Source of the DNA: Candidatus Gastranaerophilales bacterium
GTDB lineage: Bacteria > Cyanobacteriota > Vampirovibrionia > Gastranaerophilales > Gastranaerophilaceae
DNA length: 47,771 bases
NCBI GenBank assembly: GCA_944322885.1
Contig: CALUQH010000034.1
Span: forward strand, 1-47,771
Direction: 5' to 3'
The position numbers were made by a program, and so were the translations under genes. Positions 197 through 11,647 of the stretch are shown in pieces (within the stretch, counting starts at the first letter, position 1; each line of letters starts with the position of its first letter). The notes beneath the pieces are model-generated. The model made no database searches and was not told the DNA's origin. It saw only the letters and a program-made list of their open reading frames with translations.

Positions 197-1180
197 TTAT
201 TTTAGTGGTAGATAAACTTTTTTAAGTGGTAATAAAATTTTTCCTTCCGCAGAAAATTTATCATAATATAAAGTAATTAGGTTTGCTAAATCATCAATAT
301 CAAGTAATTTCAATGGCACATTTGATCTTTCAGCCTCATATTTTGCATCTTTAGAAAAACCACCTGTACTGATGTATAAACATTTATCAGTTGATTTTCT
401 ACCACCTGTAAAGGCTCTAATTTCTTGGGAGCTCATAGATCCTTTACGATGTTTAACTTCTGCAAAAATTCTTGGTTCCTCTAATCCCAATCCATCTTTT
501 GAGGCAAAAACATCAACTCCTCTATCTGCACCTTTTTTAGTCCTTTGGGCAATATAACCCATTGCATTTAATATTTCTTTTACGAGTTCTTCCATTTCAT
601 CCGGATCTAAACTCTGAATAAAATCTTTAAGAATTTCTTTTGAATTTTCAATCAGCATTAAGGCATTTTCATTATTTTCTTCCTTAATAAGGCTAGAATC
701 TTTTGGTATTTGTTTCTTATCATTTAATAAATCTAAAATTTCTTTTTCTTGTTCTTTTCTCAACTGGAATAACGTAAGAGTTGAACCTAAAGAATTTTTT
801 AGTTCATTAGATAGCGAATCTCGAGATATTTGTTTTTGATACCATTGGACTTTTCTGGTTTGTGGACAATCCACTATTTTAGAATTATAAGAATAATCGC
901 TTATAATTTTACCTACATAGTAATTTCTTGATGATGGGTCATACGTAAGCACAATATCATCAATATTCATTTTGTTGATAAAATTATTGAGCATTCCGGC
1001 CCAGGTTGGAATACTTTTTTCTTTTGTTGGGTATAATTCAGAAAGAAGTTTTTTAATTCCATTCAAATCTAAATTTTTAAGGTCAACTTCAGGACACCAA
1101 CCTAATCCAATTATTGATTTTGATAAAAAAGTTTCAATAAATCCTCCATTACTGCTTCTTACAACCCATAACTTTTCCAT
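197..1180 (-). CDS. Mrr-like restriction endonuclease (type IV-like), 327 aa
   Basis: Two-part architecture. Residues ~1-150 resemble the N-terminal PUA/EVE-like targeting module common in Mrr-type endonucleases (starts MEKLWVVRSSNGGF, with W and G anchors and YYVGKI). Residues ~185-310 are an Mrr-type PD-(D/E)xK nuclease: a helix with ALVKEILNAMGY-type spacing, then GADRGVDV with the catalytic Asp, then AEVKHRK giving the E-x-K pair, and a downstream STGGFSKDA motif typical of Mrr. Such enzymes usually cut DNA carrying modified or foreign methylation; that is family knowledge, not shown here. It is transcribed divergently from the recombinase cassette. A Shine-Dalgarno-like GGAGAA precedes the start. 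The specificity matters because a cytosine methyltransferase is encoded about 2.3 kb away. Confidence 0.85.
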   Translation of the reverse strand: MEKLWVVRSSNGGFIETFLSKSIIGLGWCPEVDLKNLDLNGIKKLLSELYPTKEKSIPTWAGMLNNFINKMNIDDIVLTYDPSSRNYYVGKIISDYSYNSKIVDCPQTRKVQWYQKQISRDSLSNELKNSLGSTLTLFQLRKEQEKEILDLLNDKKQIPKDSSLIKEENNENALMLIENSKEILKDFIQSLDPDEMEELVKEILNAMGYIAQRTKKGADRGVDVFASKDGLGLEEPRIFAEVKHRKGSMSSQEIRAFTGGRKSTDKCLYISTGGFSKDAKYEAERSNVPLKLLDIDDLANLITLYYDKFSAEGKILLPLKKVYLPLK

Positions 1181-1434: not shown

Positions 1435-1514
1435 TGATAACAATTGTGTCAATGGGCTTGATTTTATCTGTAACTAGAGCGATTTATATGAGTAATAACA
1501 AGGATTTATTATGA
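1434..1514 (+). CDS. Tiny hydrophobic ORF bridging the cassette (26 aa)
   Basis: The frame starts at an ATG overlapping the previous stop and ends at a TGA overlapping the next start (ATGA at 1511-1514). It begins MITIVSMGLILSV, a short hydrophobic stretch. It may be a real micro-protein or only a coupling device that carries ribosomes to the DUF2924-like gene. No independent ribosome binding site is evident. Confidence 0.3.
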   Translation: MITIVSMGLILSVTRAIYMSNNKDLL

Positions 1515-1843
1515 ATAATAAACTTATTGAACGTAAACTTGAAAGATGGCACAGAAAATATTCAGATTACTCGCCTGAGTTAAAAGACAAAATTAAAAAA
1601 CTTGTTGATAAGTTTAACATGTCGGAACCATTTGATTCTAGCATTGTAAAAAAGATTCAAACTAAATCATCCATGACTGGTAAACGGTTTCTTAGAGAAT
1701 ACAATGGCAAAATACATGAAGTTAAAGTTTTAGAACAGGGTTACAGTTATAACGATAAAATTTACAAAAGTCTTTCAGCAATAGCTTATGATATTACTGG
1801 AACACGATGGAACGGTAAAAGATTTTTTGGAGTATGTAAATGA
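1511..1843 (+). CDS. DUF2924-like protein, recombinase-associated (110 aa)
   Basis: The C-terminal half carries the DUF2924 signature: TGKRFLREYNGKIHEV, then YSYNDKIYKSLSAIAYDITG and TRWNGKRFFG. Proteins of this family are commonly encoded directly before large serine recombinases in phage and integrative elements (family knowledge), and here the stop overlaps the recombinase start by four bases (ATGA at 1840-1843). The N-terminal ~50 residues are basic and helical. A DNA-binding accessory role is plausible but unproven. Confidence 0.75.
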   Translation: MNNKLIERKLERWHRKYSDYSPELKDKIKKLVDKFNMSEPFDSSIVKKIQTKSSMTGKRFLREYNGKIHEVKVLEQGYSYNDKIYKSLSAIAYDITGTRWNGKRFFGVCK

Positions 1844-3414
1844 CGAAGCAAATCAGATGTGCAATATATACAAGAAAATCTTCTGAAGAAGGATTGGAAC
1901 AAGACTTTAACTCACTTGATGCTCAGCGTGAAGCCTGCGAGGCTTACATAAAATCTCAAATGCATGAGGGTTGGATATTATTAGAAAAACAATATAATGA
2001 TGGCGGATATTCAGGTGGTACAATGGAAAGGCCAGCATTTAAAGCCCTTTTAGAAGATATAAAAATGGATAAAATAGACATAGTTGTAGTTTATAAAGTT
2101 GATCGTTTGACTCGTTCGCTAATGGATTTTGTCAAGATTGTTGATATTTTTGACAAACACCAGACTTCATTTGTTTCAATAACCCAACATTTTAATACAA
2201 CAACTTCTATGGGAAGATTAACTTTAAATATGTTGTTGTCATTTGCACAATTTGAAAGAGAAGTGACAAGTGAGAGATTACGTGATAAATTTGCAGCTTC
2301 ACGTAAAAAAGGAATGTTTCTCCACGGAACTGCACCTTTAGGCTATCAAAAAGAAAAAGGAACTTTGTTTGAAGTACCTGAACAGTCGGCAATAATCAAA
2401 CTAATATTTAAGAAATATTTAGAATTAGGTTCAAGTGTAAGACTGCAAAAATATTTAGAAGAAAATAATATAAAAACGTTAAACGGAAAATCTTTTAGTG
2501 TTGGACATTTAACACGAATTTTAAGCAACAAAGTTTATATAGGTAAAATTACATATAAAAATGAAGAATATGACGGTTTGCATAGTGGAATTATAGATAA
2601 TGATTTATTTGAAAAGGTTCAAAATTGTATAAAAGAAAATAAAGGAGAAAGAAAATTTACAACAAACAATCATCAATATGCACTTCTCGGATCAAAATTG
2701 TTTGATGACAAAGGAAATTATATGTCACCCACATATAGTTATAATCGACACAAAAAACGTTACAGGTATTATGTTTCGCAGCCACTTATCCAACATCGTG
2801 AACAGGATGCAGGTTCGGTAAATAAAATTCCCAGTGATGAAATTCAAAATTTTGTAAGAAATGAAGTCGAAAGTTTTATTACTGATAAAACTAATATTCA
2901 GCAATATTTGAGAAATTATACAATAATGAAACAAAGTAAGATTATTAATTCTCTTGAAACATTAAAAATAACGGACCAGATTATACGATTAGTAGTTCAC
3001 AAAGTTACAATTTATAAGTCAAAAGTTGAACTTGAATTAAATAAGAATATAATGGTCAAACTTCTTGAGGAATTGGCATACAACAAAGAAATTTTAATAG
3101 AAATAGCAGAAACTGAGTTTATAACAATTACAAAAGATATAAATATAATCTCAACTCCTCGGCATGGAAACAAATTGATTATTGGGAATGAGGTTCAATA
3201 TAATTCAACATTGATAAATGCGTTAATAAAAGGGTTTTATTATTATAAATTATGGAAAGAAGGGAAGTTATCTCAAGAACAGAAAAAAAGCACTTATGTT
3301 TATAGATTAATAAACTTGAGATTCTTACCGCCTAAAATAGTAGAAGATATTTTAAACGGGAAACAAGAGCCCAATATTACTGTAAAAAAACTTTATATGT
3401 TGACCAAAATATAA
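1840..3414 (+). CDS. Large serine recombinase / site-specific integrase family (524 aa)
   Basis: Residues ~6-150 form the resolvase catalytic domain: Y10-T-R-K-S14 gives the nucleophilic serine (YxRxS), followed by EGLEQDFNSLDAQREACEAY, a DGGYSG motif, VYKVDRLTRS and FEREVTSERLRDK. A recombinase domain follows (~160-270, ending near LSNKVYIGKITYKNEEYDG). The usual zinc-ribbon segment is present in outline (LLGSKLFDDKGNYMSP...YRYYVSQPLI) but without paired cysteines, as in a known subgroup of recombinases. The C-terminal ~150 residues are lineage-variable. It probably moves the island, but attachment sites could not be identified. Translation is coupled to the DUF2924-like gene. Confidence 0.9.
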   Translation: MTKQIRCAIYTRKSSEEGLEQDFNSLDAQREACEAYIKSQMHEGWILLEKQYNDGGYSGGTMERPAFKALLEDIKMDKIDIVVVYKVDRLTRSLMDFVKIVDIFDKHQTSFVSITQHFNTTTSMGRLTLNMLLSFAQFEREVTSERLRDKFAASRKKGMFLHGTAPLGYQKEKGTLFEVPEQSAIIKLIFKKYLELGSSVRLQKYLEENNIKTLNGKSFSVGHLTRILSNKVYIGKITYKNEEYDGLHSGIIDNDLFEKVQNCIKENKGERKFTTNNHQYALLGSKLFDDKGNYMSPTYSYNRHKKRYRYYVSQPLIQHREQDAGSVNKIPSDEIQNFVRNEVESFITDKTNIQQYLRNYTIMKQSKIINSLETLKITDQIIRLVVHKVTIYKSKVELELNKNIMVKLLEELAYNKEILIEIAETEFITITKDINIISTPRHGNKLIIGNEVQYNSTLINALIKGFYYYKLWKEGKLSQEQKKSTYVYRLINLRFLPPKIVEDILNGKQEPNITVKKLYMLTKI

Positions 3415-3499: not shown

Positions 3500-4597
3500 T
3501 TGATAAAGAACAAAAAACAGGGTAGTATAAAGGTTTTTGATTTCTTTTCAGGTTGCGGTGGTACAAGTGCTGGATTAAAACAAGCTGGCATGGATATTAT
3601 TATGGCTATCGACATCGATAAGGAAGCTTTAGATACTTTGGAATATAATCTGTCCCCTCAAATTATAATTAATAAAGACATACAGCAAGTTGATGTTAAC
3701 GAAGTTGACGCTGTTGTAAAACGATATAATAAGAAAAATTATATTTTGTTTTGTGGTTGTGCACCATGTCAGCCATTTTCTACACAAAATAAAAAACGTT
3801 TTCAACAATCAGATAAACGTTTAAATCTTTTAAATCAATTTTTAAGATTTGTTGAAAAATCGGAACCAGATTTTATATTATGCGAAAATGTTCCTGGGTT
3901 ACAGAAAATAGGAAATGATGGGCCACTGCCAAATTTTATTTGCAGATTAAGAGAGTTGGGGTATTATGTTCCTGAACCTCGTATAATTTATGCTCATAAA
4001 TATGGTATTCCGCAAACTAGAAAAAGATTGGTATTAATAGCAAGTAAATTGGGACAAATTTCATATCCAGAAGAGACACATGGACCTGGCAAATTATCTT
4101 ATAACACAGTGAGGGATAGTATATCCTATTTACCACCAATAAAACATGGTAAATCGCATCCTGATGAAAATAAATATCCGAATCATAGATGTGCCGCCTT
4201 ACAGGACATAAATTTAAAACGAATTCAGTGCATAAAAGCTGGGCAAGGACGAAATGATTGGCCTGAGGAGTTAAGGTTAAAATGTCATGAAAAACATAAA
4301 GGACATTCTGATGTTTACGGAAGACTCGATTGGGATGCTCCATCTGTTACATTAACTACAAAATGCATAAATATCTCTAATGGTAGATTTGGTCATCCAG
4401 AACAGGATAGAGCTTTAAGCATAAGAGAAGCAGCCTGCTTACAGACCTTTCCTAAAAATTTTAAATTTATGGGTTCTAGTCTTACTGAAATGGCAAAACA
4501 GGTAGGAAATGCGGTTCCAGTCGAATTAGCAAGGATATTTGGGGATATGTTTATGGAACATATAACTCAATATAAAAGAGGAGAAAAGAATGGCTAA
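3500..4597 (+). CDS. DNA (cytosine-5) methyltransferase (365 aa)
   Basis: It transfers a methyl group from SAM to C5 of cytosine in duplex DNA. Canonical motifs appear in order: I (FDFFSGCGGTSAGLKQAG, ~13-30), IV with the catalytic cysteine (CAPCQPFSTQN), VI (ENVPGL), VIII (QTRKRLVLIAS), then a target-recognition region of ~100 residues, IX (RALSIREAACLQTFP) and X (QVGNAVP). The start is TTG at 3500 behind AAGGGG; motif I follows closely, so no ATG further in fits. Its stop overlaps the start of the next gene (ATGGCTAA). The operon contains no conventional type II restriction enzyme, so the methyltransferase may protect host DNA from the linked Vsr-like nuclease or mark DNA for the ATPase system. 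Confidence 0.93.
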   Translation: MIKNKKQGSIKVFDFFSGCGGTSAGLKQAGMDIIMAIDIDKEALDTLEYNLSPQIIINKDIQQVDVNEVDAVVKRYNKKNYILFCGCAPCQPFSTQNKKRFQQSDKRLNLLNQFLRFVEKSEPDFILCENVPGLQKIGNDGPLPNFICRLRELGYYVPEPRIIYAHKYGIPQTRKRLVLIASKLGQISYPEETHGPGKLSYNTVRDSISYLPPIKHGKSHPDENKYPNHRCAALQDINLKRIQCIKAGQGRNDWPEELRLKCHEKHKGHSDVYGRLDWDAPSVTLTTKCINISNGRFGHPEQDRALSIREAACLQTFPKNFKFMGSSLTEMAKQVGNAVPVELARIFGDMFMEHITQYKRGEKNG

Positions 4598-7535
4598 ATT
4601 TAAAACTAGAGCCAGAGCTCTTGATATGTTGGGGAAACAACAAATTGCAGGAATACCTACAGCAATAAGCGAATTATTTAAGAATGCTTATGATGCATAT
4701 GCCACAATCGCCAGAGTTGATTTTCTTAAACCTCTTGACATGTTTGTATTGAGTGATAACGGTATTGGCATGACAAAAAATGATTTTGAACATAAATGGT
4801 TGGCATTAGGTACAGATAGTAAATACAGTAAAAAAAGTTCAATTATACCTGCTAAAATGAAAGAACGTCCTGTTCTTGGCGAAAAAGGTATCGGACGTTT
4901 AGCAATATCAACAATAGGTCCACAAGTCTTAATAATGACCCGTGCTAAACGAGATAATCAATTGGAAGATATAGTTATATCTTATATTCACTGGGGAGTT
5001 TTTGAAATACCAGGAATTAATTTGGAAGATATTAACATTCCAGTAAAATCAATTCCAAATAATAGTTTTCCAAATAAAAAAGATATTGACGATTTGGTAA
5101 ATGATTTTAGGCTTAATATTGAAAAATTTAAAGACATTTTAACTGAAAAACAATTAATAGACTTTTATAATGACTTTGAAAATTTAAGAAAAAAATCAGA
5201 ATTAGAGTTATTAACTAAAAAAATTGGAGAACCGACATTAAAAAATGCTTCGGGGACCCAGTTTTTTATAACTCCAGTAAGTGAATTATTATCAGACCAA
5301 ATTGAAGATTGGGATAATATGGATAAAGATTCCCAATTAAGACAAACTTTAGTAGGATTTTATAATACGATGACTTGTCCTATATCGGAACAAGAAATGA
5401 ATACTGAATTTAATGTTTATAATGAGCTTGAATCGTCACTTAATTTATTAGAAGATTCAAGGTTTTGGACACAAGAAGATTTTCTTAATGCAGATGTTTA
5501 TTTTTCTGGGAAATTTGATTCTTACGGTGTATTTAACGGAAAAATAAGAATATATGGTTATGAACAGGATTATTCAGTAAAATGTACAAATCGAATTAAT
5601 CCTTTATCCTGTGGCGAATTTAAATTTACTTTAGGCTTTATTCCTGGTGAGTTGAGAAATTCTCTACTGGATACAAAAATTTATAATGACTATAATGAGC
5701 GTTTGAAAGCTATAGGTGCAATATATATTTATAGAGATAACATCCGTATATTACCTTATGGTACTCCTGAATTCGATTTTTTAAAATTAGAGGCTATAAG
5801 ATCTAAGCGTGCAAGTGATTTTCTTTTCTCCCACAGGAGATTATTTGCAACCATTGAACTTACAAATGAATTTAATTATATGTTAAAAGAAAAAGCTGGA
5901 CGTGAAGGTTTTATTGAAAATAAGGCTTATACCGAATTTAAAGAAGTTTTAACAAACTTATTATTCAATATAATGACAGATTTTTTGAAAAATAATGCAA
6001 AAGTTAATAATACATTTGAACTCAAAAAAAATGAATTATTGGAAATTGACAAAAGAAATAAAGCACTTCAGGTACAAGATAAGAAAAATAAACAAATAAT
6101 TCGTGATTTTAAAAATTTATTGGGTAAAAAAGAAAAAGAATTATTTTCGCAGGGAATAAAAGAAAACTACACAGATAAAATTAAGTATTTTTATCAAGTA
6201 ATTGATGAAAATTATTTAAATAATAATTTTGATGCTTTATTATTTCTAAAGACTGAAATATTACAATATTCAAATGATTATTGGGCAGGATATAAAATGG
6301 CAAAACCAAGAGGAATTATATTGCCAGAAGAAGTTGATGAACGCCTTGGATATTATATTGCAGAATTGGAAGAACTTTTGGAATATAACAATAAGGAAAT
6401 TAACAAATTAATTTCATGTATTGATATGAAATTAAATAATTTATCTGATATTAAATTAAAAACTGACAGCATAAAAAATTCCATTGACGAACAACTAAAT
6501 TTTGTAAAAAATATAGTTGTCTTGAAGAACTCACAAATTGAAGAGATTTATCTTCTTATCAAAAGAAATTTGGATATGATAATATCCAAGGCAACCATAC
6601 CAGAAGATACCAAATTACAGGAAATTGAAAATAGTTTAATAAACTTTAAAGAACAACTTCAATATGATATTAATATCAAAAATAATCTAATAAAAAATTA
6701 TACCAAAGAAATAGAGGAAGTTAAAAACAACTATAATCTTATTTTTGAAAAAATTAAATATGCAATGGCAAATAGTTTAAGTTTGAATTCTGATAATCAA
6801 CTCCTTTCAAGTGAAGATTTGTTAGAAGCGTATGAAACTGAAATTCGCAATTATCAAAAAAATGCCGAAACAGATTTGGAATTATTGCAAAAAGGATTGG
6901 CCATTGATGTTATAAATCATGAATTTAACAATAACATAAAATTTGTAAGAAATAATATTAAAAATCTGAGAGTATGGGCTGAACATAATGCTAGTTTGAT
7001 GCAGTTGTATAATAATATTTATAATGGATTTATGCATTTAGATGGATACTTAGCTCTATTTACCAAATTACAACGTAGATTATATCGAAATGCTATTGAA
7101 ATCTCAGGAAATAGCATATTAAGATACATCGAAGATATTTTTAAAGAACAATTTGCAAAATTTCAAATTAATTTAATTGCCTCAGATGATTTTAGGGCTA
7201 ACAATATAACAGGGTTTCCATCAACATTTTATCCAGTTTTTATAAACCTGCTGGATAACTCAATTTATTGGTTGAAAAGTGCAACAACAGAAAAAAATAT
7301 TTATCTGGAAATTGATTCATCAAAGAATTGGGTAATTAGAGATAACGGTCCAGGTATTAAACCTCAAGATGTATTTAGAATATTCGAAAAAGGTTTTTCA
7401 AGAAAAGAAATGGGAAGAGGATTAGGACTTTACATATGCAAGGAAGTATTAACTCAAGAAGGTTATGATATCGTTTTGGATCAAACGTATACTGACGGTG
7501 CAAAGTTTATTATAACAAAAATAAAAGAAGATTAG
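4590..7535 (+). CDS. Dual GHKL ATPase protein: MORC/Hsp90-like N-domain plus histidine-kinase-like C-domain (981 aa)
   Basis: The N-terminus is a Bergerat-fold ATPase: the N-box ELFKNAYDA has E28 and N32, the G1 box DNGIGM is at 56-61, and G2 GEKGIGR is at 97-103, in the style of Hsp90/MutL/MORC proteins. Residues ~480-760 are strongly charged and helical, probably coiled coil. A histidine-kinase-like module closes the protein: an H-box INHEFNNNI with His777, an N-box INLLDNS (N890), G1 RDNGPG (918-922), an F-box FEKGFS and G2 GRGLGLYICKE (~942-952). There is no transmembrane segment, so it is cytoplasmic. It overlaps the methyltransferase gene by 8 bases and lies 7 bases before the receiver-like gene, its likely partner. 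Two GHKL domains in one chain imply a signal-gated ATPase/kinase; function is inferred. Confidence 0.85.
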   Translation: MAKFKTRARALDMLGKQQIAGIPTAISELFKNAYDAYATIARVDFLKPLDMFVLSDNGIGMTKNDFEHKWLALGTDSKYSKKSSIIPAKMKERPVLGEKGIGRLAISTIGPQVLIMTRAKRDNQLEDIVISYIHWGVFEIPGINLEDINIPVKSIPNNSFPNKKDIDDLVNDFRLNIEKFKDILTEKQLIDFYNDFENLRKKSELELLTKKIGEPTLKNASGTQFFITPVSELLSDQIEDWDNMDKDSQLRQTLVGFYNTMTCPISEQEMNTEFNVYNELESSLNLLEDSRFWTQEDFLNADVYFSGKFDSYGVFNGKIRIYGYEQDYSVKCTNRINPLSCGEFKFTLGFIPGELRNSLLDTKIYNDYNERLKAIGAIYIYRDNIRILPYGTPEFDFLKLEAIRSKRASDFLFSHRRLFATIELTNEFNYMLKEKAGREGFIENKAYTEFKEVLTNLLFNIMTDFLKNNAKVNNTFELKKNELLEIDKRNKALQVQDKKNKQIIRDFKNLLGKKEKELFSQGIKENYTDKIKYFYQVIDENYLNNNFDALLFLKTEILQYSNDYWAGYKMAKPRGIILPEEVDERLGYYIAELEELLEYNNKEINKLISCIDMKLNNLSDIKLKTDSIKNSIDEQLNFVKNIVVLKNSQIEEIYLLIKRNLDMIISKATIPEDTKLQEIENSLINFKEQLQYDINIKNNLIKNYTKEIEEVKNNYNLIFEKIKYAMANSLSLNSDNQLLSSEDLLEAYETEIRNYQKNAETDLELLQKGLAIDVINHEFNNNIKFVRNNIKNLRVWAEHNASLMQLYNNIYNGFMHLDGYLALFTKLQRRLYRNAIEISGNSILRYIEDIFKEQFAKFQINLIASDDFRANNITGFPSTFYPVFINLLDNSIYWLKSATTEKNIYLEIDSSKNWVIRDNGPGIKPQDVFRIFEKGFSRKEMGRGLGLYICKEVLTQEGYDIVLDQTYTDGAKFIITKIKED

Positions 7536-7542
7536 GTGGTTT

Positions 7543-9270
7543 ATGGGGCAAGTTACAGATAATGATTTTGATAAATTTTCACAGGAGATTGTAAAAAAAT
7601 TTTTAAGAACAGCTGTTTCTATTGATGATCAACCGAATTATAATGTTAATAAAATTCATCCTAAAATGGTTATTGATCCAAGTGCTGAATATCGGAAACT
7701 CATAGATAATCAAGGTGAAAATAAAATAACTCTGGACGAAAATGAGGAAAATAAAGAGTTGGATATTTCGGAATTAACAAATAAATTTATTGAAAAACAA
7801 ATATTGTTTACTCCAATAAAGCCAGACATAAATAATTCTTTTTTTTATAATAAAGCGGAAAGTCAATCAATACTTAAAGAATTTATGAATAAGTATTATG
7901 ATGTAATAAATAAAGCCGATATTATTATTTTGGATTGGGAATTATCTGCCGATGATAAAGATGGTATCTTTACACAAGAAATAATAAAAAAAATACTAAA
8001 AGAAAATAATCTAAAATTAATTATAATTTATTCTGGATCAGATAGGATTACAAAAGAAATCCCAAAAACATTATTTGATTTAGTTGGAAAAACTGAAACA
8101 GAAAGTCAAATTACCGAATTTCGAACTAATAAATATTCTATAATTTATAAAGGAATAAAAATTAAACTGATTCATAAAACAACTTCTCCTGATCCAGAAT
8201 ATCTTTTATCTTCTTCTGTTGCAGAGTTGCCAGATGTTTGTATAAGAGAATTTGCAAATTTTGTCAGTGGATTGTTGTCTAATGCGACTTTGGCAGCTAT
8301 TACAACTATAAGAGATCATACTTTTGATATAATTTCTCAATTTAAAAAACAATTTGACGGAAATTATATCTCTCATAGAATATCTATCCCTAATGCTGAT
8401 GATGCAGAATACTTTATATGTGAATTAATTAAAGATGAAATTGTTGCTGCTATTAATTTTGAAAATATTAAAAAGTGCATAAATTTGGATTCTATAAAAA
8501 AACTTATCAATGCAAGTAATTTCAATAACAAAATAAAAATAAACGAAGACAATATTCATGAATGTAATCTTATAAAATTAGTTGAAATTGGAGCTGACAA
8601 ATATTGGAGTGAACAAGCTTACAGTAAAAAGTTAAAAGAAAAGCTCAAAAGAAAATCAGATTACTCAAGATATTTTATAAATTCTACTGTTACAGATGAA
8701 GCTTTAAATAAACTTGAGCAAGAATTTACTTCGCTTACTACAACAAATACAAAATATTATTCAGATACATATCTACCTTATTTAACACTTGGAACTATAA
8801 TTGCTTTGAAAAAAGAAAGTGAAGGTAGATGTAATCCGAATGAACATTGTAGAATTATGTGCAATTGTTCAAGTACATATAGCTATTATTTGTGCATACA
8901 ACCTCGCTGTGACAGTGTAAGATTAGAAAAAGATGAACCATTATTATTTATCCCTCTTGTGGAAGATTGTACCAAAAATAAAGTATGTTTTTTTGATAGC
9001 AAGTTAAATAAAAATTGTACACTTGGCTTTAAAAAAGTAAGTAGTTTAGTTATAAAAAAATTTAAAATGTGTAACGATGAACATGACAGAATATATGCAT
9101 TAGTGGACGATGAAAACGATTTTGTATTTAAATCAATCAATGGCAATATTTACAGATGGGTTACAGAATTGAAATTTTCTTTAGCTCAAAAAATAATTAA
9201 TCAATTTGGAAATAATATAAGCAGAGTAGGCTTTGACGAATATGAATGGTTTAGGTTACAACAAAAATAA
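7543..9270 (+). CDS. Receiver-like domain protein with C-terminal cysteine cluster (575 aa)
   Basis: The N-terminal ~215 residues look like an enlarged response-regulator receiver: an acidic pair D28-D29 (VSIDDQPN), a phospho-acceptor candidate D131 (IIILDWELSADDKDG), S164 in IIYSGSD at the beta-4 position and K212 in LIHKTTSP at beta-5. The gap between the acidic pair and D131 is ~100 residues instead of ~45, filled by a charged insert. The middle is helical. The C-terminal part has six cysteines within 27 residues (C430, C436, C440, C442, C451, C456), with YYLCIQPRCDSVRL, suggesting a metal site. There is no known DNA-binding output domain. An AGGTGG site precedes the ATG. It is probably the phosphorylation or binding partner of the dual-GHKL protein. 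Confidence 0.75.
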   Translation: MGQVTDNDFDKFSQEIVKKFLRTAVSIDDQPNYNVNKIHPKMVIDPSAEYRKLIDNQGENKITLDENEENKELDISELTNKFIEKQILFTPIKPDINNSFFYNKAESQSILKEFMNKYYDVINKADIIILDWELSADDKDGIFTQEIIKKILKENNLKLIIIYSGSDRITKEIPKTLFDLVGKTETESQITEFRTNKYSIIYKGIKIKLIHKTTSPDPEYLLSSSVAELPDVCIREFANFVSGLLSNATLAAITTIRDHTFDIISQFKKQFDGNYISHRISIPNADDAEYFICELIKDEIVAAINFENIKKCINLDSIKKLINASNFNNKIKINEDNIHECNLIKLVEIGADKYWSEQAYSKKLKEKLKRKSDYSRYFINSTVTDEALNKLEQEFTSLTTTNTKYYSDTYLPYLTLGTIIALKKESEGRCNPNEHCRIMCNCSSTYSYYLCIQPRCDSVRLEKDEPLLFIPLVEDCTKNKVCFFDSKLNKNCTLGFKKVSSLVIKKFKMCNDEHDRIYALVDDENDFVFKSINGNIYRWVTELKFSLAQKIINQFGNNISRVGFDEYEWFRLQQK

Positions 9271-9277
9271 ATAATAT

Positions 9278-9682
9278 TTATAAGTATTGTTCTATTATTA
9301 AAATGCAATTGTTGATATCTTTTTTTATCTCATGCTCCCAAAATCTTAATACTATCCATCCATTTTGTTTTAAAACTTCATTTACTTTTTTATCTCTTAA
9401 AATATTACTTTCAATTTTAGGAATCCAAAAATCTCGATTACTTTTAATTGTTTTTTTCTGATTTTGCCAATCATATCCATGCCAAAATTTACTGTCACAA
9501 AAAATTGCAATTTTTTGTTTTTTAAAAACAATATCAGGTTTACCATATATATCTTTACAATTTTTTTTGTATCTATATCCTTTGTGCCACAATGCTTTTC
9601 TAAGTATAATTTCTATTTTTGTATCCTTACACTTTATAGCTTTCATATTTTTGCTTCGTTGTTCTTTTGTAAAAATATCCAT
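9278..9682 (-). CDS. vsr: Vsr-type (very short patch repair-like) endonuclease (~134 aa)
   Basis: It starts at MDIFTKEQRSKNMKAI, matching the usual Vsr N-terminus; an ATG five codons upstream (9697) is possible, but neither has a clear Shine-Dalgarno. Family residues visible are the glutamate in DTKIEIILRKAL, the catalytic Asp of GKPDIVFKK and the His of KFWHGYDW, plus the C-terminal WIVLRFWEHEI strand. Classical Vsr enzymes nick T:G mismatches made by deamination of 5-methylcytosine and sit next to m5C methyltransferases. The zinc-binding cysteines of E. coli Vsr are not present here (see findings). It converges with the receiver-like gene, with 7 bases between stops, and may act as repair enzyme or as the restriction nuclease of the system. 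Confidence 0.88.
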   Translation of the reverse strand: MDIFTKEQRSKNMKAIKCKDTKIEIILRKALWHKGYRYKKNCKDIYGKPDIVFKKQKIAIFCDSKFWHGYDWQNQKKTIKSNRDFWIPKIESNILRDKKVNEVLKQNGWIVLRFWEHEIKKDINNCILIIEQYL

Positions 9683-9815
9683 AAAATTATTATACATCTA
9701 ACAATTTAAATAATAAGCCTGCACTTACAAATTTCCGTTCTGAGACTTTTAAAAAATTTTGGCTATAAATTCAGTATTTTAAATCTAATTTAGTCTCAAA
9801 ATAAATTTTATATAC

Positions 9816-9846
9816 AAACAAATGCCCGTGTTACGGGCATTTGTTT
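9816..9846 (-). terminator. Terminator hairpin downstream of tRNA-Ser
   Basis: A 14-bp perfect stem (AAACAAATGCCCGT pairing with its complement) encloses a 3-base loop, with a T-rich tract when read on the minus strand. It lies 43 bases beyond the tRNA 3' end. The stretch 9698-9815 between it and the Vsr gene shows only AT-rich sequence and a weak inverted TGAGACT/AGTCTCA pair. Confidence 0.75.
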
Positions 9847-9888
9847 TAAATTATACTTTGCACTTGGTGTGCTGTCTTTACTAAAAAA

Positions 9889-9977
9889 CGGAGTAGCAGG
9901 GATTTGAACCCTGGATGCAGGTTGCCCCACATAACACCTTAGCAGGGTGCCGCCTTCAGCCACTCGGCCACTACTCC
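9889..9977 (-). tRNA. tRNA-Ser (anticodon GCU)
   Basis: The minus strand folds as a class II tRNA of about 89 nt: acceptor GGAGTAG (9971-9977) pairs with CTACTCC (9890-9896), discriminator G at 9889. The D arm carries GGCCGAGTGGCTGAAGGC, the anticodon loop CTGCTAA reads GCU, a long variable arm follows, and the T arm has GGTTCAAATCC. The 3' CCA is not encoded. It is the first core-type gene after the island. Confidence 0.95.
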
Positions 9978-10057
9978 AAGGGCGCATGTTGCATGCGGAT
10001 AATTTTATTCTAACATAAATATTTTTTTTCGTAAATCCTTTTTATTACCTTTTTTAC

Positions 10058-10086
10058 TTGACCGACTGCACATTGTGAGATAAAAT
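10058..10086 (+). promoter_or_regulatory. Sigma70-type promoter for the bifunctional nuclease gene
   Basis: TTGACC (10058-10063), a 17-base spacer and TAAAAT (10081-10086) precede GAAAGG (10097-10102) and the ATG at 10110. Confidence 0.65.
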
Positions 10087-10109
10087 ATAAGTAAACGAAA
10101 GGTTTGTAA

Positions 10110-10625
10110 ATGATTGAAATGAAAGTTATGGGTATTGCTCTTGATACAAGAACAGGCTCCCCGATTGTTGTTTTACATGATAAAGAAAACAGAAAAGCGC
10201 TTCCTATCTGGATTGGATCTGCAGAAGCCAGCGCTATTATAAGAAAAATTGAAAATTTGTCTGTTGCACGTCCGATGACGCATGATTTGATTATTAATAT
10301 TATTGAAAAAACAGGCTATAAACTTGATAGAATTGAAATAAACGATGTCGAAAAAGATACTTATTATGCGACATTATTTTTAACAAATGATGAAGGCAAT
10401 ACTCTTGAGATAGATTCAAGACCGTCAGATGCAATCGCTGTTGCAATAAGGGTAGATGCACCGATATTTGTTACGGCTAATGTTATCTCAAACGGCTCTG
10501 TTTCAACAGATTCAGCAAAAGATGAAGAAGAAGCTCAGGAATTTAAAAAGTTTGTTCAGAGCATCAAACCTTCAGATTTCGCAAAGTTGATGAAAGACAA
10601 CGAACACCACGAAAGTGATCAATAA
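10110..10625 (+). CDS. Bifunctional nuclease-domain protein (DUF151/BFN, 171 aa)
   Basis: Residues ~1-130 match the bifunctional nuclease (BFN/DUF151) domain: KVMGIALDTRTGSPIVVL, KALPIWIGSAEASAI, RPMTHDLI, and SRPSDAIAVAIRVDAPIFV. The acidic SRPSDA motif and the HD pair are the family's hallmark. The C-terminal ~35 residues are charged and there is no UvrB/C motif. The start is supported by GAAAGG 8 bases upstream and by a sigma70-type promoter. Family members are described as nucleases with RNase and DNase activity; the role in this organism is unknown. It stands alone between the tRNA and small unknown genes. Confidence 0.9.
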   Translation: MIEMKVMGIALDTRTGSPIVVLHDKENRKALPIWIGSAEASAIIRKIENLSVARPMTHDLIINIIEKTGYKLDRIEINDVEKDTYYATLFLTNDEGNTLEIDSRPSDAIAVAIRVDAPIFVTANVISNGSVSTDSAKDEEEAQEFKKFVQSIKPSDFAKLMKDNEHHESDQ

Positions 10626-10704
10626 TTTGTTAAAATTGTAACAATAATTTGAAAATCTGAAATTGACCTGTGAATATTATTTTTATTTTATATGAGAATA
10701 TATT

Positions 10705-10911
10705 ATGAACGGAATTGAAGCTATACAACCGAATAATATTTTTAGAGTGAATGCCGTTAACTTTTTTGAAAACGGCCGACAAAACAGGAGTGTTCAAAAT
10801 AATTTTGACACGGGTTTATTCGCGCGTCAGGATAATAATGAGTATAATTTAAATCATCCGAGAGTCCGCGGAAGTGAAACTCAGGCAAGGAATTTAGATT
10901 TATTGGCTTAA
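10705..10911 (+). CDS. Small unknown protein with NLNHP motif (68 aa)
   Basis: A 68-residue polar protein beginning MNGIEAIQPNNIF, with EYNLNHPRVRG near residue 50. The downstream small gene has YNLNHPKTADD in a similar position, so the two look like paralogs. The N-terminal NGIEAI also occurs in a small protein near the end of the window (46868-47158). There is no signal peptide or membrane segment and only a weak ribosome binding site. Family not recognised; probably lineage-restricted. Confidence 0.6.
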   Translation: MNGIEAIQPNNIFRVNAVNFFENGRQNRSVQNNFDTGLFARQDNNEYNLNHPRVRGSETQARNLDLLA

Positions 10912-10996
10912 TATTTCTTAATATTTTTTTGAAATTCTGGCAATTTTTCCTAACAAAAATACTTTATTAAAGTATAAGGGAAAAATTGGAGGAATT

Positions 10997-11209
10997 ATGT
11001 CCGGAGCAATTCATTTTAATCCGAATGTAAGCGGGATAAATACAAGGTATAATTTTGAGATGCCGGCAGCTGCAAGAACATTTGTCAGCAATGCAGTAAA
11101 TCAGGGACATTATAATCTGAATCATCCAAAAACTGCTGATGATGAAGGCCTTCGTATGTTAGGGGCTTCAGCTTCTTCTGTAGGTAACAGATTAGATATC
11201 CAATGCTAG
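10997..11209 (+). CDS. Small unknown protein with NLNHP motif (70 aa)
   Basis: A strong GGAGG lies 7 bases before the ATG. The protein begins MSGAIHFNPNVSGIN and contains HYNLNHPKTADDEG around residue 47, shared with the gene before it. It is soluble and ends LDIQC. An inverted repeat (ATACTTT...AAAGTAT, ~10959-10975) lies just upstream and may be regulatory. Its stop overlaps that of a convergent small gene (11206-11364) by a few bases. Function unknown. Confidence 0.7.
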   Translation: MSGAIHFNPNVSGINTRYNFEMPAAARTFVSNAVNQGHYNLNHPKTADDEGLRMLGASASSVGNRLDIQC

Positions 11210-11364
11210 TTTAAAAAGATATTTTGTGAGTAATTTGTCTTATAAATAAGATTAGTTTCAGAAAATGCAGGCGTGAATGAATATATTCTTCGTTCACGTT
11301 TTTTGAATGCACAAAGCCCTATTACTTTTTCATCATCTTTGAATAAATTTTTTAAAAATTCCAT
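11206..11364 (-). CDS. Small basic hypothetical protein (52 aa)
   Basis: A frame shorter than 60 codons on the minus strand: ATG at 11362-11364 behind GAAGGAAG, 52 codons, stop at 11206-11208. It begins MEFLKNLFKDDEKVIGLCAF, followed by KKRERRIYSF. It fills what would otherwise be a gap of over 230 bases, and the good ribosome binding site argues that it is real. It is convergent with the NLNHP protein gene. No family recognised. Confidence 0.6.
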   Translation of the reverse strand: MEFLKNLFKDDEKVIGLCAFKKRERRIYSFTPAFSETNLIYKTNYSQNIFLN

Positions 11365-11443
11365 ACTTTATACTTCCTTCTATTTTTATTGTATAATATT
11401 TTTAATGACAGGTAAAATTAAGTCAACATAAGGAGAAAATATT

Positions 11444-11647
11444 ATGGCAGGAAAAATTACAAAAGATATGAACATTATGGATATTGTTCAACAGTGTCCT
11501 GAAAGCATTGAAGTATTTCAAAAATACGGTTTGGGCTGTATAGGATGCGCTGCTGCTCATTTTGAAAATTTAGAAGCAGGAGCAAAAGTTCATGGCTTTG
11601 ATCCGGATGCAATGGTTGCTGATATTAATGCTTTAATTCAGGACTAA
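11444..11647 (+). CDS. DUF1858-domain protein, CxxC redox-type (67 aa)
   Basis: The whole protein is one DUF1858 domain: ITKDMNIMDIVQQCPE, then FQKYGLGCIGCAAAHFEN with a CxxC pair (~residues 32-35), and a helical tail ending ADINALIQD. The domain is described as hybrid-cluster-associated, disulfide-oxidoreductase-like and occurs alone or fused to iron-sulfur proteins; a cytoplasmic metal or redox role is likely. AAGGAG precedes the ATG and a strong terminator follows, so it is monocistronic. Confidence 0.88.
   Translation: MAGKITKDMNIMDIVQQCPESIEVFQKYGLGCIGCAAAHFENLEAGAKVHGFDPDAMVADINALIQD

Follow-up and report, generated by a model that had tools for sequence, protein, structure and literature searches.

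Do a DNA methyltransferase, a histidine kinase, a receiver protein and a Vsr nuclease that lie end to end in one bacterial genome work as a single defense system, and if so, which of them delivers the output? The question is raised by a 47,771-nucleotide stretch of Candidatus Gastranaerophilales DNA (contig CALUQH010000034.1 from its base 1; hereafter the window), on which open reading frame (ORF) calls place the four genes as follows:

3500-4597, plus strand: 5-methylcytosine (m5C) DNA methyltransferase with a TTG start and AAGGGG 5' of it; putative self-marking enzyme
4590-7535, plus strand: MORC-type GHKL ATPase joined by an extended helical stretch to a HEF_HK histidine kinase (981 amino acids)
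7543-9270, plus strand: Response_reg_2 protein with a receiver domain, a helical middle and an unnamed C-terminal domain (575 amino acids)
9278-9697, minus strand: accessory Vsr-family nuclease of a variant type that lacks the usual CFWHxHxC cluster (139 amino acids)

The original prediction had described these genes as one candidate defense system in which Vsr could be the effector. ORF calls and Pfam bear out the genes, their positions and their spacing, with an 8-base overlap between methyltransferase and kinase, a 7-base gap between kinase and receiver, and a 7-base convergent gap between receiver and Vsr. We report that the four-gene set is probably an immune module. The idea of one system is supported by a recurrent gene unit, intact phosphorelay residues, a near-obligate methyltransferase and a mobile island of defense type, while the role given to Vsr is not. 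The fuller proposition, that the cassette is a mobile, methylation-linked defense module signaling by phosphotransfer, stands in our estimate at an even balance, its defense role being what we infer.

Whether this exact set had been described was left open by the original prediction; it was described in 2021. HEF_HK (PF19191) and Response_reg_2 (PF19192) were defined computationally by Bellieny-Rabelo et al. (2021; PMC8011034), who reported linkage between the two genes for 91.6% of 644 regions, commonly with a C5 methyltransferase upstream, noted Vsr in 20 genera, mostly directly downstream of the receiver gene, and proposed for the pair a paraMORC origin and the control of restriction-modification (R-M) systems. 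We found no later work or experimental follow-up on these domains in the open-access literature, and PADLOC holds models for neither the kinase (0 families) nor the receiver (0 families), with only the methyltransferase and Vsr matching R-M-type models. The window locus is a diverged member of the kind described in 2021; new here are the counts in loci with full flanks, the trio as core and the predicted MORC2/MORC3-like fold of the kinase N-terminus.

A conserved trio and a variable Vsr gene

Scanning 84,980 species genomes with a profile returned 325 relatives, of which the best 80 were kept, so that the sample is biased toward the nearest relatives, and partner genes were scored by six-frame search. 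Across these 80 loci from many phyla, a receiver gene accompanies the kinase in 79 and an m5C methyltransferase in 75, so the co-occurrence on which the prediction was to be judged goes beyond chance; in four of the five relatives lacking the methyltransferase, one side of the locus is close to the end of its contig. When only loci with at least 3 kilobases (kb) upstream and at least 4.5 kb downstream are counted (n = 47), the receiver is present in 47/47, the methyltransferase in 46/47 and Vsr in 27/47. Vsr is found upstream on the plus strand (19 cases), downstream on the plus strand (16), downstream on the minus strand (8) or upstream on the minus strand (2), and on the kinase tree its presence switches at least 11 times and its position or strand 19 times (47 scored rows). 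This variation marks methyltransferase, kinase and receiver as the core and Vsr as accessory. Kinase and receiver distances correlate (Spearman 0.56, with 0/500 permutations as high), as do, less strongly, those of kinase and methyltransferase (0.35), and the 56 aligned kinases span 15 phylum-level groups, Methanobacteriota included.

The window Vsr matches PF03852 (E 1.5e-30) and TIGR00632 (153 bits, cut-off 97.85) and aligns with the E. coli enzyme (1cw0, E 2.6e-16), placing D55 and H73 opposite D51 and H69, the catalytic residues of E. coli Vsr. It reads CDSKFWHGYDW in place of the CFWHxHxC cluster, which forms the zinc site of E. coli Vsr; most relatives retain CFWHxH, and the CDSxFWHGYDW form is common only to the window and locus L018 in the set compared. 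Could this nuclease be the effector, licensed by the kinase-receiver pair to cut DNA without the methyl mark? Its presence in 27 of the full loci and its odd subtype in the window speak for such a role, as do distances within Vsr-bearing loci, where Vsr correlates with the kinase (0.62) no less well than with the methyltransferase (0.52). Caulobacter, moreover, suffers DNA damage from its Vsr-like protein VsrA if the cognate methyltransferase is lacking (PMC12907096), a precedent that makes action of a Vsr on unmethylated DNA conceivable. However, Vsr is absent from 20/47 full loci, shifts as described above, does not accompany the trio at the E. coli locus examined or in plasmid loci L006 and L007, and, where flanks are present, was found without a methyltransferase in 0 loci. 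This distribution argues against Vsr as an obligate effector, and we regard the licensing model as highly improbable.

Apart from Vsr, no nuclease recurs beside the trio in the 80 relatives, where an HNH-type family occurs in 5/80 and an AAA_15-type family in 3/80. The HNH-type protein (~250-264 amino acids) lies directly 3' of the receiver gene in L013, L046, L049, L070 and L075, with Pfam HNH or HNH_2 in all 3 scanned, and the AAA_15-type protein occupies the same place in L033 and L087, and by similarity in L090.

Catalytic residues and folds

The methyltransferase matches PF00145 (E 1.6e-58) and the dcm family TIGR00675 (158.8 bits, cut-off 100.65), which make it an m5C methyltransferase, as found in type II R-M systems, and its translation shows the motifs PCQ, ENV, QTRKR and GN. 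The 981-residue protein carries PF13589 HATPase_c_3 (24-132, E 2.5e-19), PF19191 HEF_HK (767-833, E 5.7e-21) and PF02518 HATPase_c (880-976, E 4e-17), the only HEF_HK match in the source genome, so that the predicted pair of Bergerat-fold ATPases and the H-box are recovered in one protein, with the core histidine at H777. H777, E778, E28, N32, N886 and N890 are invariant in 56/56 kinases, as are D56, G58 and G60 (DxGxG), the glycine and lysine residues of G97-G102 (GEKGIGR), and the N and G boxes of the C-terminal ATPase. Judged by these residues, both ATP sites appear intact. On the kinase tree the window protein splits off deeply and forms a long branch without close relatives (best identity 37%).

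In the predicted structure of the kinase (mean predicted local distance difference test score, pLDDT, 78.7), the N-terminal module at about residues 20-450 is mostly well predicted and matches MORC2, SMCHD1 and MORC3 (Foldseek prob 1.00, E 7e-11 to 1e-9), and also HSP90 (prob 1.00). The MORC2/MORC3 match spans about 500 alignment columns, and the matched MORC2 structure was solved with DNA. The GHKL motifs are followed by an S5-like domain, as in MORC and paraMORC proteins, and we class the N-terminus as MORC-like only. A long helical region then leads to a C-terminus matching HK853. The structure prediction proposed for the pair thus yields a MORC-like N-terminus and an HK853-like C-terminus in the kinase, and a receiver fold in its partner.

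That partner, encoded by the adjacent gene, matches Response_reg_2 (PF19192, E 2.8e-20) and keeps the receiver catalytic residues: D28, D131 and K212 are invariant in 70/70 receivers, and position 164 is Thr or Ser in 69. Its model (pLDDT 84.1; predicted template modeling score, pTM, 0.84) begins with a receiver fold (best VIA Z 10.8, 2.8 Å over 117 residues). In the helical middle D272 is invariant and H278 near-invariant. The C-terminal domain is strand-rich in the model and carries the motif CxxPxCDxxR at residues 451-460, in which C451, C456 and R460 are invariant, as is G417, while D457, E568 and R571 are near-invariant; its Cys-x4-Cys and Arg make this unnamed domain the candidate output of the system. 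A scan of 70 receivers found no Pfam family common to members in this domain. Comparison of the receiver profile with sequences of solved structures returned noise only, and the viral fold library gave no match under E 0.001. The C-terminal profile also retrieves diverged plasmid receivers (L006-L008, E 4e-6 to 9e-5). A single, weak Foldseek row (5cqy, prob 0.51, E 0.068) hinted at a MazF-like fold, which is not claimed, since profile comparison with five MazF-family sequences gave a probability <1%. A similar CD motif, visible by eye in the kinase partners of L004 and L005, is a lead only.

Some relatives may pair with other marks. On contig L004, from a virome, an N6/N4-type methyltransferase is followed by a double-GHKL kinase of similar type and its 446-residue partner; a search of viral contigs with this kinase found none. 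In Candidatus Chlorohelix (L010, 6300-10873) a kinase of the same build, with a sub-threshold HEF_HK match (18.1 versus 24.1 bits), has cysteine desulfurase, DUF4007, PAPS-reductase-type and FtsK genes around it, a setting that resembles a phosphorothioation cluster, and its 714-residue partner has no recognized domain. If these two cases hold, they are suggestive of a kinase-partner module able to combine with more than one kind of DNA mark.

A cassette carried at tRNA-Ser

The cassette lies in a genomic island, whose other features in the window are:

1840-3414, plus strand: large serine recombinase of the island (mobility, outside the system; PF00239 E 7.3e-38, PF07508 E 1.4e-18)
1511-1843, plus strand: DUF2924 protein accompanying the recombinase (PF11149 E 1e-23; 67% amino acid homologue in the G391 island)
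9880-9906, no strand: right end of the island, a probable attachment core at the 3' terminus of tRNA-Ser(GCT)
9888-9978, minus strand: tRNA-Ser(GCT) gene
197-1180, minus strand: candidate defense gene of family PDC-S02 (PADLOC E 2.5e-83), encoding an Mrr nuclease domain

The slot between the serine recombinase and tRNA-Ser holds exactly the four genes, at 27.8% GC against 32.8-36.4% in 6.2-kb windows elsewhere on the contig. Recombinase homologues occupy the same tRNA in the same genus (79% amino acid identity in genome G391, 72% in G386), and nucleotide homology with seven relatives ends at 9880-9889, the 3' end of tRNA-Ser(GCT). On the side from recombinase to tRNA the G391 slot measures about 127 bases only, and in G386 an 893-residue HSDR_N + AAA protein stands in place of the cassette (L111 1007-3688), marking the site as a hotspot for exchangeable cargo. 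Copies of 27 bases of the attachment-core sequence occur in L113; no further exact copy of the core is present in the genome, and the left end of the island was not found on the contig, which begins at window base 1. The prediction that no ordinary type II endonuclease is present holds for the four-gene cargo, but PDC-S02, an Mrr-type nuclease, lies beyond the recombinase. At the position of PDC-S02, G391 carries a KAP-family P-loop NTPase beside the DUF2924-recombinase pair (L110 4824-5687, minus strand).

PF19192 occurs in 1/386 sampled genomes of the source phylum, the window's own, a rarity that makes transfer the most likely source of the cassette. Of 393 genomes from the order of L018, 10 carry a receiver, at 39% identity or less. 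In E. coli, 194/5,426 complete genomes (~3.6%) contain 80% or more of the trio with a minimum identity of 99%; in L139 the trio spans 5950-11642. Strain STIN_95 has kept the methyltransferase and lost most of the kinase and receiver; E14 (L141 6503-11622) carries an IS1-truncated methyltransferase beside intact kinase and receiver genes, and is a natural test of the pair's toxicity without its methyltransferase. The kinase profile matched 14 viral or prophage contigs, and the trio lies on IMG/VR viral or prophage contigs L115-L121, partly with Vsr; a search of viral contigs for the receiver protein alone found nothing, its seeds being too weak.

Such mobility would also suit a selfish cassette, in which the methyltransferase and the kinase-receiver pair stabilize the island through post-segregational harm, phage defense being secondary. 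The low-GC cargo, the recombinase-carried island and the variable slot fit this idea, and pairing with a methyltransferase is typical of R-M addiction. However, E14 survives without an intact methyltransferase, and we consider addiction quite unlikely.

Proposed mechanism and relation to known systems

We favor a model in which a MORC-like clamp, a kinase and a receiver, all supported by sequence and fold, would drive a defensive output. The methyltransferase would mark host DNA at its target sequence, while a dimer of the N-terminal MORC-like ATPase would clamp or survey DNA and respond to unmarked DNA or another infection cue. ATP-driven closure could be relayed along the helical rod as far as the HEF_HK domain, causing autophosphorylation on H777, from which the phosphate would pass to D131 of the receiver protein. 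Phosphorylation may then free the output of the receiver's C-terminal domain, stopping the invader or the cell: in this domain the invariant Cys-x4-Cys-(Asp)-x2-Arg and a C-terminal Glu-x2-Arg that is near-invariant have the appearance of an active site or a ligand site. Vsr, as an accessory, would repair T:G mismatches arising from deaminated 5-methylcytosines made by the methyltransferase. The most specific version, in which the clamp-kinase reads missing methylation and activates a receiver whose C-terminal domain is a new enzymatic effector, is tentative and somewhat unlikely.

Several points weigh against this defense model. The C-terminal effector is postulated for a domain that no solved fold clearly matched, the VIA rows covering mainly residues 20-243, so that this fold was barely probed. 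The correlations of Vsr distances with kinase (0.62) and methyltransferase (0.52) do not favor a tie of Vsr to the methyltransferase alone, a reservation on its repair role. The viability of E14 suggests that unmethylated self DNA is not automatically restricted, and sits poorly with a constitutive restriction enzyme, unless IS1 also removed the operon promoter and so silenced the genes. Finally, the authors who defined the domains read the kinase-receiver pair as a regulator of R-M genes (PMC8011034): sensing a cytoplasmic cue, it would control how strongly the methyltransferase, with Vsr or other R-M genes, is expressed or how active it is, as a form of epigenetic regulation rather than restriction. 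This would agree with E14, which retains kinase and receiver without a whole methyltransferase, and with the two proteins themselves, in which no nuclease domain was recognized by Pfam, by scanning 70 receivers or by fold search of the kinase model. On the other hand, Pfam recognized no DNA-binding or transcription-output domain in the receiver, and scatter over many phyla together with a swap-in slot beside defense-type genes fits defense better; we judge pure regulation unlikely.

If the defense model is true, bacteria trigger immunity by textbook two-component signaling that is coupled to DNA methylation, with a MORC ATPase, from a family of chromatin silencing in animals and plants, as the DNA sensor. 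The HEF_HK system is a widespread one, found in 15 phylum-level groups and ~3.6% of complete E. coli genomes and yet without a PADLOC model. The question is narrowed to a single domain in a single protein and a small group of point mutants.

Among known systems, that of 2021 shares with the window the four gene families, the group-1 kinase architecture, the upstream methyltransferase and a Vsr directly downstream of the receiver gene, and in the window and its relatives alike a C5 methyltransferase is a neighbor and Vsr a frequent one; the window differs in its long-branch kinase and in a convergent Vsr of unusual motif type. MORC-like ATPases occur in R-M operons (Iyer et al., 2008; PMC2292703) that likewise combine an N-terminal GHKL and S5-like module with cytosine methyltransferases and Vsr-superfamily nucleases, but the window ATPase is fused to a histidine kinase, has a receiver partner, and comes with no helicase and no recognized fused nuclease. 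VcSduA, a GHKL-type Shedu with proven anti-phage activity that requires its ATPase (PMC12137116), also has an N-terminal GHKL ATPase thought to gate the output and a mobile defense context; it has its own PD-(D/E)xK nuclease, whereas a methyltransferase or phosphorelay is not described for it. The mzaABCDE system and the system of Z1, PD-(D/E)xK and methyltransferase (PMC9523054) were rejected, as the window holds no Z1 or AIPR. BbrUII/HgiDII (NF050001) matches the N-terminal 115 residues of the kinase (E 3e-18; residues 9-123 only, 65.6 of 550 bits) and has an m5C methyltransferase partner as well, but the window protein runs on into a kinase. E. coli Dcm-Vsr very short patch repair likewise combines an m5C methyltransferase with a Vsr endonuclease; unlike it, the window has between the two a kinase-receiver pair that is more constant than Vsr.

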